Positions 2,858 through 5,366 of a stretch of DNA of 64,000 nt are shown here, piece after piece. The notes under the pieces are model-generated. The model made no database searches. It was not told where the DNA came from and saw nothing but the letters and a program-made list of their open reading frames with translations. This stretch comes from Natronospirillum operosum (GTDB taxonomy: Bacteria; Pseudomonadota; Gammaproteobacteria; Pseudomonadales; Natronospirillaceae): contig NZ_SRMF01000001.1 of assembly GCF_004768465.1 (NCBI RefSeq), positions 969,893-1,033,892 of the forward strand, read 5' to 3'. A program made the translations under genes and the position numbers. Position 1 is the first letter of the stretch; every line of letters starts with the position of its first letter.

Positions 2858-3931
2858 TCAGACCAGACCATCGTATAGCGCATGCGTATATTGTGCCAGC
2901 ATTGCGGGCCATTCCCAGTGCTCTATCGAGGGCGCGGGAGGCCGCTGGTCCGGGTTCTCCAGCCAGTTCCCAAGCTGCTGTACCAGCGCTTCCACGGACC
3001 CCTGATAACGGTACTGCGGACCATAGAACTCCGGATAGCAAAGGCGATCCGGTACCAGCGGGATGCTGCCGGCCTGCACGGCCTCCAGCATGGCCAGACC
3101 CTGAAACTCGTGCAGTGCGGTCGAGACGACGATGGCCGAACGCTGCAACAGGGCTTCATAGTCCGCCCGTGGCTGATGCCCCCATGCCTCAATTCGGTGC
3201 GCGAGTTGCAGCTGCGCCTGCGCAAACACCTCCGGCTGCTGGCGGAAGGTCTGGCCAGCCACAGCCAGACGAAAGTCGAACCCTTGCCGGTCCAGTTCCG
3301 TGCAGGCCGCGAAGAAGGCCTTCGGCTGCTTGTCGTATTCCCAGCGGTGGTTCCACAGAATCAGCGGGGCTGCATCAGGGTCGGCTAATCCGACGTCTGC
3401 CCGGTTGGTACGGGGTTCCAGCGGCACCGGCAGGACTCGGGACCGAGCCGCCAGCTGTTCGATGAATGACAGGTCCAGACGTTCCGGCATGCGTCGCATG
3501 AACTGCTCCAGACCACACAGATAGGTATCCCGGTTGTAGACCGAATTGAACAGCAGGCAGTCGGCCACCAGGCCGGCATAGAGACTGACCATCAGTGGCT
3601 CGGCGCGACGCTTCTGCCCGGGTGACAGTGGATACTCGAACTGATTTTCGTGGAAATACAGTACCTTGCGGGACTTTCCCAGATTCGGGTAGAGGCCGAT
3701 CAAGGTGGCCAGGTCGACCATGGAGGTGGCCAGTACCAGGTCATAGTCCTGCTCCAGCACTGCCCCGGACTCGGTGTGCCAGTGCAGCGGGTTGCCGCGC
3801 ATGCGCCAGGCAAAGTGCCGCCCGGGCAGCTGCAGCAGCGTCCAGTCGACCTCATCCAGCCAACGCATGACGCCAGCGGCCCAGCGGCGGTGGCTGTCGG
3901 TATGATAGGCAGAGAGCAGCAATGCTCGCAT
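2858..3931 (-). CDS. Probable tRNA-queuosine alpha-mannosyltransferase (QTMAN/GTDC1 family)
   Basis: This 357-residue protein matches the DUF3524 glycosyltransferase group. The N-terminus MRALLLSAYHTDSHRRWAAG and the stretch YFHENQFEYPLSP are hallmarks of that family. A GT-B style C-terminal domain follows, with ILWNHRWEYDKQP, an AVAGQTF strand and the donor-site motif STALHEFQGLAMLEAVQAG. The vertebrate member QTMAN attaches mannose to queuosine at the tRNA-Asp wobble position. The bacterial protein is assigned by family resemblance, so acceptor and donor are inferred. It is the first gene of a minus-strand group with the DUF1566 protein and the hydrolase. No queuosine synthesis gene lies in this window. 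Confidence 0.78.
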   Translation of the reverse strand: MRALLLSAYHTDSHRRWAAGVMRWLDEVDWTLLQLPGRHFAWRMRGNPLHWHTESGAVLEQDYDLVLATSMVDLATLIGLYPNLGKSRKVLYFHENQFEYPLSPGQKRRAEPLMVSLYAGLVADCLLFNSVYNRDTYLCGLEQFMRRMPERLDLSFIEQLAARSRVLPVPLEPRTNRADVGLADPDAAPLILWNHRWEYDKQPKAFFAACTELDRQGFDFRLAVAGQTFRQQPEVFAQAQLQLAHRIEAWGHQPRADYEALLQRSAIVVSTALHEFQGLAMLEAVQAGSIPLVPDRLCYPEFYGPQYRYQGSVEALVQQLGNWLENPDQRPPAPSIEHWEWPAMLAQYTHALYDGLV

Positions 3932-4057
3932 CAGGTTTGCTGTGTCCTCCGTTGTTCTAACATCGCCAAGCTTGTGTGGATGCCTTCACTCTATAGAGCA
4001 TGTCGGACCGTCGCCAGGCTCGGGTACAGGCCCTGTGAGTCCGAGCTGGTTGCCAAG
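3932..4057. other. Upstream region of the QTMAN gene
   Basis: This short stretch precedes the QTMAN start on the minus strand and runs up to the first palindromic element. Reading on the minus strand, an AGGACAC ribosome site lies close to the start codon. A CTATAGAG stretch near 3990 is a possible -10 but has no clear -35. Nothing else is recognisable here. Confidence 0.4.
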
Positions 4058-4180
4058 GCCGCCTGATGGCGGGGTGTGCTGACCGCAGACACGCAAAAAA
4101 ACGTCGTCCCTGACAGCTCGAGCACGGCCGTCCCTGGCCGTGCACGGTCTGCGGTTCAGCACACCACCGCCCGGCGGCCG
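4058..4180. repeat. Long imperfect inverted repeat
   Basis: Arms of about 33 bases face each other across a loop of about 56 bases. The core arm GGTGTGCTG-ACCGCAGAC (4072-4090) pairs with GTCTGCGG-TTCAGCACACC (4147-4165). Pairing resumes further out as GGCCGCC (4058-4064) with GGCGGCC (4174-4180). Small indels interrupt both arms. The loop has its own hairpin, GCACGGCC-GTCCCT-GGCCGTGC. No protein frame here looks real. It could be a degenerate miniature element or a strong RNA or DNA secondary structure; nothing seen decides between these. Confidence 0.7.
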
Positions 4181-4228
4181 CGCCTGCAGCGCCAACTTCT
4201 GGAAGGCACTCAATTTACGCGAAGCAAA

Positions 4229-4317
4229 TGTAGCGAGGGACGCAAGTCCCGATTGGGCCGACAGGCCCACGGGAGGGGCGGCTGCGCCACCCATCGCGAC
4301 TCGCGTCGCTCGCTACA
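4229..4317. repeat. Multi-hairpin palindromic element 1 (REP/BIME-like)
   Basis: Outer arms TGTAGCGAG and CTCGCTACA are perfectly complementary and enclose four compact hairpins. These are GGGAC-GCAA-GTCCC (4237-4250), GGGCC-GACA-GGCCC (4255-4268), GGGCGGC-TGC-GCCACCC (4276-4292, one mismatch) and GCGAC-TCGC-GTCGC (4296-4309). This cloverleaf-like design resembles dispersed REP-type elements of gammaproteobacteria. Family membership cannot be shown without other copies, and no second copy of the full element is in this window. Confidence 0.72.
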
Positions 4318-4330
4318 ACCGAGGCTCTTC

Positions 4331-4397
4331 TGCAGGCGGTGCGACCCGACGTTTCGGGGCTTACTCACGCATGCGTGGCCGAGGGCCACCGCCTACA
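4331..4397. repeat. Multi-hairpin palindromic element 2
   Basis: Outer arms TGCAGGCGGTG and CACCGCCTACA (one mismatch) enclose CCCGA-CGTT-TCGGG (4345-4358), the perfect 12-base palindrome CACGCATGCGTG (4366-4377) and TGGCC-GAG-GGCCA (4376-4388). The plan is the same as the element 13 bases upstream, but the sequence differs, so the two appear to be related in design rather than direct copies. Confidence 0.65.
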
Positions 4398-4438
4398 AGG
4401 GTAAGGAGGTACGGTTCGATCAGCACCAAACCCACCGA

Positions 4439-4466
4439 CAAAAAAGGCGCCCGCAGGCGCCTTTCA
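4439..4466 (-). terminator. Rho-independent terminator of the sdh-suc operon
   Basis: Read on the minus strand this is AAGGCGCC, loop TGCG, GGCGCCTT, then a T-run, 28 bases past the sucD stop. The plus strand has A residues before the stem and CTTTC after it, so termination is expected mainly for minus-strand transcripts coming from sucD. Confidence 0.88.
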
Positions 4467-4493
4467 ATCAGGTTGCACAAGGCGCCCTGAGGA

Positions 4494-5366
4494 TTACCAG
4501 CCGGTGGCGGCCTTCAGGCCTTCACCGATCTCGGCCAGGCTGCGCACCGTCTTCACGCCGGCATCTTCCAGCGCCGCGAACTTCTCGTCCGCTGTGCCCT
4601 TGCCGCCGGAGATGATGGCACCGGCATGACCCATGCGCTTGCCCTTGGGCGCCGTGACGCCGGCAATATAGGCCACGACAGGCTTGGTCACATTGGCCTT
4701 GATGTAGGCCGCAGCTTCCTCTTCAGCGGTACCGCCGATCTCGCCGATCATCACGATGGCTTCGGTCTGCGGATCATTCTGAAACAGCTCCAGAATGTCG
4801 ATGAAGTTAGAGCCCGGAATCGGGTCGCCGCCAATACCCACACAGGAAGACTGGCCGTAGCCGAAGTCCGTGGTCTGCTTGACCGCTTCATAGGTCAGGG
4901 TACCGGAGCGCGACACAATGCCGACCTTGCCGGGCTTGTGGATATGGCCCGGCATGATGCCGATCTTGCTTTCGCCCGGAGTGATCACACCAGGGCAGTT
5001 GGGGCCGATCAGGCGCACACCCAGCTCGTCACACTTGACCTTGACGTCCAGCATGTCCAGTGTCGGGATGCCTTCCGTGATGCAGACCACCAGCTTGATG
5101 CCGGCATTGGCGGCTTCGAGGATGGAGTCCTTGCAGAACGGCGCCGGTACATAGATGACCGAGGCCTCGGCGCCAGTCTGCTCGACCGCTTCGCGGACCG
5201 TGTTGAACACCGGCAGGCCGAGATGCGTCTGGCCGCCCTTGCCCGGTGTTACACCACCAACCATGTTGGTGCCGTACTCGATGGCCTGCTCGGAGTGGAA
5301 GGTACCCTGGGCACCGGTAAAGCCCTGACAGATGACCTTGGTGTCCTTAGTCAACAAAACGCTCAT
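4494..5366 (-). CDS. sucD: Succinyl-CoA synthetase (ADP-forming) alpha subunit
   Basis: This 290-residue protein is full length and highly conserved. It has the CoA-binding Rossmann start ([19 protein letters not shown]), GGVTPGKGG, the ligase segment [14 protein letters not shown] and the phosphohistidine region [14 protein letters not shown]. With SucC it converts succinyl-CoA to succinate with nucleotide phosphorylation. It is the last gene of the sdh-suc cluster. Its start overlaps the sucC stop by one base (TAATG), and a terminator follows it directly. Confidence 0.97.

Follow-up and report, generated by a model that had tools for sequence, protein, structure and literature searches.

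Behind the gene read as sucD, the genome of Natronospirillum operosum carries two adjacent palindromic elements, and the question is to what kind of repeat they belong and how they came to lie there. They are found in a window of 64,000 nucleotides (contig NZ_SRMF01000001.1, positions 969,893 to 1,033,892). A first-pass annotation of this window had located both correctly, with lengths of 89 and 67 bases. The bounds that it drew cut a larger repeat, as homology to other loci spans approximately 4002 to 4419 and its depth is down to 1 past about 4419. We consider it very probable that elements 1 and 2 are dimers of two different REPs of the GTAG superfamily, which lie inside a larger composite with a further hairpin, M2, and which would have been spread by a RAYT transposase (Table 1). 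That they are newly found members of the GTAG REP/BIME kind is strongly supported.

Layout of the composite repeat

The genome searched comprises 4.34 Mb in 32 contigs and is 98.8% complete; the copy analyses rest on 360 kb of fetched loci that were picked for holding copies, not on the whole genome. Within these 360 kb module M1 gave 54 profile hits and module M3 gave 19, chiefly onto its first half. Folded as minus-strand RNA, the whole of 4002-4419 reached a z of -7.5. The window copy of the composite looks truncated near 4419 and would thus lack its right-hand M2 end; the likeness of positions 4398 to 4419 to such an end was judged by eye against the locus C12:335k.

REP-B, spacer and REP-A could be aligned at seven loci, which had been selected for having both families and include the window. 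Five of the seven have closely kept the 13-base spacer; it is less well preserved at the C27 locus and has diverged at that of C2. Nine of the 67 REP-A dimers are accompanied by a REP-B hit at a distance of 8-30 bp, and modules M1 or M2 occur within 250 bp of 24 of the 67 and of 13 of the 15 REP-B dimers. The terminator-like hairpin outside the repeat also adjoins the sucD homologue in the sister genome. An empty site is not readable at this locus because the sister contig ends about 50 bp behind the sucD homologue (L227:1-51, G001:C51), where the window has the repeat. Several other contigs of the sister genome end within M2 copies.

Table 1. Features of the composite repeat and its flanks (positions in the window)
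Feature	Position	Strand	Basis or remark
Open reading frame	2858-3931	minus	One flank of both elements
Open reading frame read as sucD	4494-5366	minus	Other flank of both elements
Module M1, composite outer end, CGGACCGTCGCC...CTGTGAG	4002-4039	plus	Repeated part by blastn against fetched loci
Module M2, three-way-junction hairpin	4071-4166	minus	Model R1, RNA fold, pair counts
M2 tip loops		minus	Both read CAGGGACG, Csr/Rsm-like
Module M3, 3' arm of M2 outer stem plus linker toward REP-A	4151-4228		Profile hits
Element 1, REP-A dimer (BIME/REPIN), GTAG ends outward	4229-4317		
REP-A unit GTAGCGAGGGACGCAAGTCCCGAT	4230-4253	plus	
Inner linker of the dimer, two small hairpins	4254-4292		Fold
REP-A unit GTAGCGAGCGACGCGAGTCGCGAT, other stem type, hence heterodimer	4293-4316	minus	
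Spacer, REP-A dimer to REP-B dimer	4318-4330		Alignment of 7 chosen loci including the window
Element 2, imperfect REP-B dimer	4331-4397		
REP-B unit GTAGGCGGTGGCCCTCGGCCACGCAT	4371-4396	minus	
Last repeated bases	4398-4419		Resemble the start of the right-hand M2 end in other copies
GC-rich hairpin and T-run, likely terminator of the upstream operon	4440-4464	minus	Read from sequence; outside the repeat

Two REP families and a RAYT gene

Folded as DNA, element 1 forms an almost uninterrupted hairpin that includes two small inner ones (-35.2 kcal/mol, z -6.5; equalled by none of 200 shuffles); it has 93 matches in the genome at E <= 0.001, many of them partial. Its core, GTAGCGA-GxxAC-loop-GTxxC-GAT, designated REP-A, occurs in 142 exact-pattern copies (61 + 81); the reversed control pattern gave none. 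The fold of element 2 is weak (z -1.5; 16 of 200 shuffles were as good), with complementary outer arms and small hairpins present. Its genome matches at E <= 0.001 number 49, again with many partial ones, and its core GTAGGCTGTGGCCCTYGGCCACGCA was found at 65 sites with up to 3 mismatches in 304 kb of loci fetched from its own genome. Both elements recur in the genome, so that these are not palindromes that arose by chance.

A fully paired 5-bp stem is present in 145 of 160 REP-A cores from the fetched loci. Only the two variable stem pairs count as evidence, because the search pattern fixes or narrows the other stem letters. They are paired in 146 of the 160 cores, compared with 62.1 expected if the two sides were independent, and the copies being related, fewer independent events than 160 lie behind this figure. 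The stem types are GGGAC/GTCCC (67), GCGAC/GTCGC (55) and GGCAC/GTGCC (20). Where two REP-A units lie no more than 110 bp apart, GTAG points outward in 42 pairs and inward in 11, while 31 pairs have both units in the same direction. Heterodimers account for 33 of the 42 outward pairs, GCGAC being combined with GGGAC in 24 and with GGCAC in nine, and element 1 of the window is one such GCGAC heterodimer.

Two unusual arrays were also seen. Six tandem REP-A dimers follow each other with a period of about 118-121 bp at L070:15246-15928 (G000:C1:509245-509927), and five REP-A units stand head to tail at 25-bp spacing at L071:1868-1991 (G000:C1:433867-433990), four of these five carrying unmatched stem types such as GCGAC with GTCCC. 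The idea that the dimers had been inserted in target palindromes, leaving inverted flanks, was unsupported for REP-A (65 dimers, permutation p 0.09) and likewise for REP-B (15 dimers, p 0.998).

For placement counts, genes were called with a simple codon-usage caller. Of 127 repeat clusters, all modules included, a single one lies inside a called open reading frame. The flanking genes run in the same direction at 65 clusters, are convergent at 40 and divergent at seven, and 14 clusters are without a called flank; in the same-direction set the clusters start at a median of 29 bp past the gene upstream of them, with a median of 151 bp left before the gene that follows. The baseline, given by intergenic gaps of more than 60 bp in the window, is 12 same-direction, five convergent and eight divergent, a small sample which includes the present gap. 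Intergenic placement, mostly behind genes, is REP-like.

These observations bear out the suggestion of the first-pass annotation that the elements are of a REP/BIME type, since the copies are dispersed between genes, the REP-A stems vary in a compensatory manner and outward pairs prevail. The genome search for dispersed copies that it proposed returned the matches given above, and its preference for a shared design over a recent duplication agrees with two different REP families that recur together. Other parts held for one element only. Near-complete pairing is true of element 1, while the fold of element 2 is not clearly above chance; the common plan of complementary arms and small hairpins does extend to element 2, though this starts with TGCAG rather than TGTAG. 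Compensatory changes were found in REP-A, whereas the stems of REP-B hardly vary among copies. The possibility that the elements occur only here, without compensation, is thereby excluded for element 1; element 2, too, has copies.

The mobilisation by a RAYT considered in the same annotation found partial support. One Y1-transposase gene was found in the genome; it is a RAYT by NCBIfam NF047646 (E 2.9e-34) and is related to the solved TnpArep (PDB 4er8, E 1.1e-4). The REPs around it, however, belong to a third family, REP-C, of which four exact units (GTAGGAGCTCGCCCCGCGAGCGAT) surround the gene and ten occur genome-wide. Its flanks carry neither REP-A nor REP-B, so that it is not accompanied by REPs of either family under study; degenerate REP-A units lie about 700 bp away, past other sequence. 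As REP-C resembles REP-A in layout (GTAG, stem-loop, GAT), action of this RAYT in trans on REP-A is possible. According to PMC8266576, swapping the stem had a moderate effect in a group-3 RAYT system and loop changes a severe one, and it is the loops, too, in which REP-A and REP-C differ. A second RAYT could hide in an assembly gap, since seven contigs (C8, C10, C11, C27, C29, C32 and C1) have such a repeat about 450 bp or less from an end.

We infer that REP-A and REP-B are mobilised by a RAYT. Both would spread as non-autonomous single-stranded hairpins that are processed in trans by a RAYT (HUH/Y1) transposase, which may be the one present, one since lost or one hidden by an assembly gap. 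Copies at the 3' ends of genes would probably be near neutral. What counts against this explanation is that none of the 37 relatives searched, among them the single same-genus genome (91% complete), has the exact REP-A pattern, which leaves the origin of REP-A unexplained. The lone match elsewhere, in a Chloroflexi MAG of a species-level collection from which the own genome was possibly excluded, was taken as chance.

Dimers with GTAG outward and a habit of forming heterodimers are known for GTAG REPs (Di Nocera et al. 2013, PMC3733652). As far as the text of that survey goes, the present repeats are like the GTAG superfamily in the GTAG end, the stem-loop, the short unpaired GAT tail and the complementary stem subfamilies, and also in outward dimers, heterodimers, location behind genes and the presence of several families in one genome. 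In a comparison with this text, the consensus sequences being in figures, REP-A and REP-B were not matched to any listed family, and they are unlike those described in it in forming an A-spacer-B composite joined to M2 hairpins. In the account of REPINs in Pseudomonas fluorescens (Bertels and Rainey 2011, PMC3116915) we likewise find the dimer as the unit, a structured linker, compensatory changes and tandem clusters, and a clover-like fold is discussed; each RAYT there, however, lies beside its own REPIN cluster, whereas here two of three families are without a RAYT in the assembly. REP dimers regularly inside another palindrome are also mentioned for GTAG-15 of A. variabilis and CGTC-1 of H. 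neapolitanus in the text of PMC3733652. Unlike these, the outer hairpin is here a separate structured family present in many genomes, while REP-A is in none of the 37 relatives.

The M2 hairpin

The window copy of M2 matches model R1 with E 2.7e-23, and the minus-strand RNA of 4058-4180 folds with a z of -7.3. From 65 profile hits in this genome 43 copies were aligned, 14 partial ones and eight of unequal length (the window copy among them) having been dropped. Across these 43 other copies, 99.4% of the 903 pair cells of the 21-pair three-way junction are preserved. Cells changed on both sides number 160 compared with 54.8 in shuffles, pairs changed on both sides 11 compared with 8.8 (5 of 500 shuffles as high), and the covariation score is 0.486 compared with 0.169 (slid controls 0.008-0.063), where the structure was derived from the same 43 sequences and related copies inflate the contrast with the shuffles. 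The count of pair types does not stand out from the shuffles (20 compared with 19.0; 174 of 500). Within this genome the outer stems are of a few shared types.

Other genera provide an independent check. Among 293 genomes of the order, 78 have a match to model R1 at E <= 1e-4, and 36 of 119 genera are represented, the own included; as no more than 14 candidates were scored in any genome, copy numbers are lower bounds. Over the phylum it was found in nine of 299 genomes, all nine inside the same class (the share of the 299 outside that class is not given). Allowing up to 2 mismatches, the M2 pattern has 56 copies here and 16 in the same-genus genome, and none in 20 other genomes of the family. 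Among 64 R1 matches elsewhere, stems were counted in 52, ten weaker matches and two duplicates being left out; six of the 52 are without the core pattern, and 46 copies from 11 genomes were kept. Half of their outer stems exceed 27.5 bp (the median), and 52 of the 1202 pairs counted are mismatched, figures that include a spurious 3-bp stem (L262:1047) and one of 8 bp (L266:836). The inner 12-mers are distinct in 44 of the 46 copies, though copies within one genus share arm parts and are not all independent. The long stems in other genera are mostly locus-specific.

Neighbouring M2 copies less than 500 bp apart are arranged plus-minus in 17 cases here, plus-plus in one and minus-plus in none; in relatives all 11 of 11 are plus-minus. 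Outward-facing pairs about 60-116 bp apart, in which the partners have different stems, were seen in other genera (L239, L241, L247 and L285). At eleven loci the sequence between paired copies is REP-A, REP-B, REP-C-like or something else. An orthologous locus in the sister species retains the M1-M2 hairpin with compensated stem differences, while its core is different and without REP-A, and at a second locus several compensated pairs distinguish the M2 tip stems of the two species. As the hairpin is kept in the sister, M2 at these loci predates the split of the two species.

Rfam 15 gave no match at gathering score in the window and five sub-gathering matches in 3932-4493 (best E 0.025); none reached threshold on M2 at nine loci of other genomes. 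Beside one M2 copy of another genus (L242:952-1082) a SAM-I/IV riboswitch is just over its Rfam gathering score. At about G000:C23:209590-209670 and C1:1061906-1061969 another palindrome (like tcaggcccagggacgggcctga), also with a TCCCT/AGGGA loop, interrupts or alters M2 hairpins. A phage origin was discarded, as the M2 pattern is absent from viral contigs and one relative's M2 copy has no match in phages; this copy does have matches in two plasmids, with an identity of 75.6%. No description of the family was found in the literature searched, which covered few subscription papers, and the search with a sequence string was swamped by unrelated ones. M2 is apparently a structured repeat undescribed so far.

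The strand on which M2 folds can be read from its mismatches. In relatives 27 of them are G-U on the minus strand (A-C as modelled), one is G-U on the plus strand and 24 are of other kinds. Counted as distinct contexts the figures are 26, 1 and 21, and the minus-strand G-U kind is seen in nine of 11 genomes. The 49 related copies of this genome have 60 A-C, three G-U and 73 other mismatches, in a noisier gapped alignment with 167 gap positions. From this one-sidedness we take the minus strand to be the one whose fold is kept.

Alternative readings and what M2 may mean

It might be thought that M2, and not the REPs, is the functional unit: a dispersed RNA of the minus strand with two CANGGANG-type loops, which would bind CsrA/RsmA as a decoy or as a site within a transcript, REP-A and REP-B being passengers. 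We regard this as possible, if on balance doubtful. The wobble pattern speaks for it, as does a structure kept over 43 copies with changes on both sides and found across 36 genera. The loops speak for it too: of 45 copies from relatives, 43 have CA(N)GGANG in both loops of the minus strand and 24 have strict CANGGANG in both, as do 47 of the 51 copies of this genome. The Rsm motif is CANGGANG, and CATGGATG is a mutation-tested site in cfcR of P. putida (PMC6849547); a 'long palindromic region' was among the intergenic RNA obtained by Rsm pull-downs in that species (PMC7937890). The Rsm consensus was, however, matched to the loops only after these had been seen, the pair-type measure of covariation lies within the shuffle range, and tolerance of G-T may equally reflect single-stranded DNA. 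Mutation biased between the strands could also contribute to the asymmetry, yet would hardly produce 26 against 1. Nor does the folding strand follow the transcription of the neighbours, being the same in 15 cases and opposite in 21 between same-direction genes of this genome (4 and 10 among single copies). In relatives it is the same in 22 and opposite in 17 (58 copies, 39 of them in same-direction contexts), by which M2 as a 3'-UTR element of fixed orientation is unsupported.

RNAs of the RsmX/Y/Z type bind Csr/Rsm proteins. M2 is like such RNAs, going by the motif in PMC6849547, in its ANGGAN loops closed by C-G and in having more than one site per RNA; it is unlike them in being dispersed, multi-copy and intergenic, with long stems that are locus-specific in other genera and with putative binding. 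A wider proposal, which we think somewhat unlikely, is that M2 represents an undescribed, order-wide family of dispersed RNAs with a three-way tip, two Csr/Rsm-type loops and stems that are rebuilt at each locus and yet stay paired. Genomes would thereby have many scattered CsrA/RsmA sites, often as outward pairs so that read-through from either side would yield one, and REPs would land there.

It is unlikely that the composite is a MITE-like unit with opposed M2 hairpins as its ends, REP dimers as inserts or cargo and one transposase moving the whole. The nearly constant plus-minus arrangement of neighbouring M2 copies would suit such a unit, as would the eight of 67 REP-A dimers inside an outward M2 frame and a core which varies among loci and, at one orthologous locus, even between two species. 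In other genera, nevertheless, the outer stems are mostly locus-specific and not shared terminal repeats, 29 of 65 M2 copies here are without a partner within 600 bp (some perhaps for missing fetched sequence), and neither a transposase for the composite nor target-site duplications, for which the search was not systematic, were identified. Locus-specific inverted flanks were seen at two M2 frames (C28:89k and C12:335k); others share module sequence or little. We consider it very improbable that the stretch is mainly the terminator of the suc operon or a 3' structure that stabilises its mRNA. It is true that 96 bp separate the end of element 2 from the upstream gene, that on the minus strand a T-run comes after M2 and that the repeats of this genome cluster behind genes, but a separate terminator-like hairpin precedes the repeat, and a terminator role leaves copy number and species restriction unexplained. 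M2 as an oriented terminator was rejected, as the orientation of the T-run is independent of transcription (the 15 and 21 cases above).

On the reading that we prefer, dimers of two GTAG REPs within a composite, elements 1 and 2 are ordinary in kind, and the recurrence of two GTAG families beside a third hairpin makes a useful example of palindromes nested in one another. Of more consequence than the REP elements is the M2 family. Its strand-specific wobble pattern makes the question of RNA versus DNA directly testable. If M2 binds CsrA/RsmA, a dispersed repeat unmatched in Rfam 15, the single RNA catalogue searched, would influence how much of a global regulator is free, and, if this is true, unexplained palindromic intergenic peaks in Rsm pull-downs might be accounted for.
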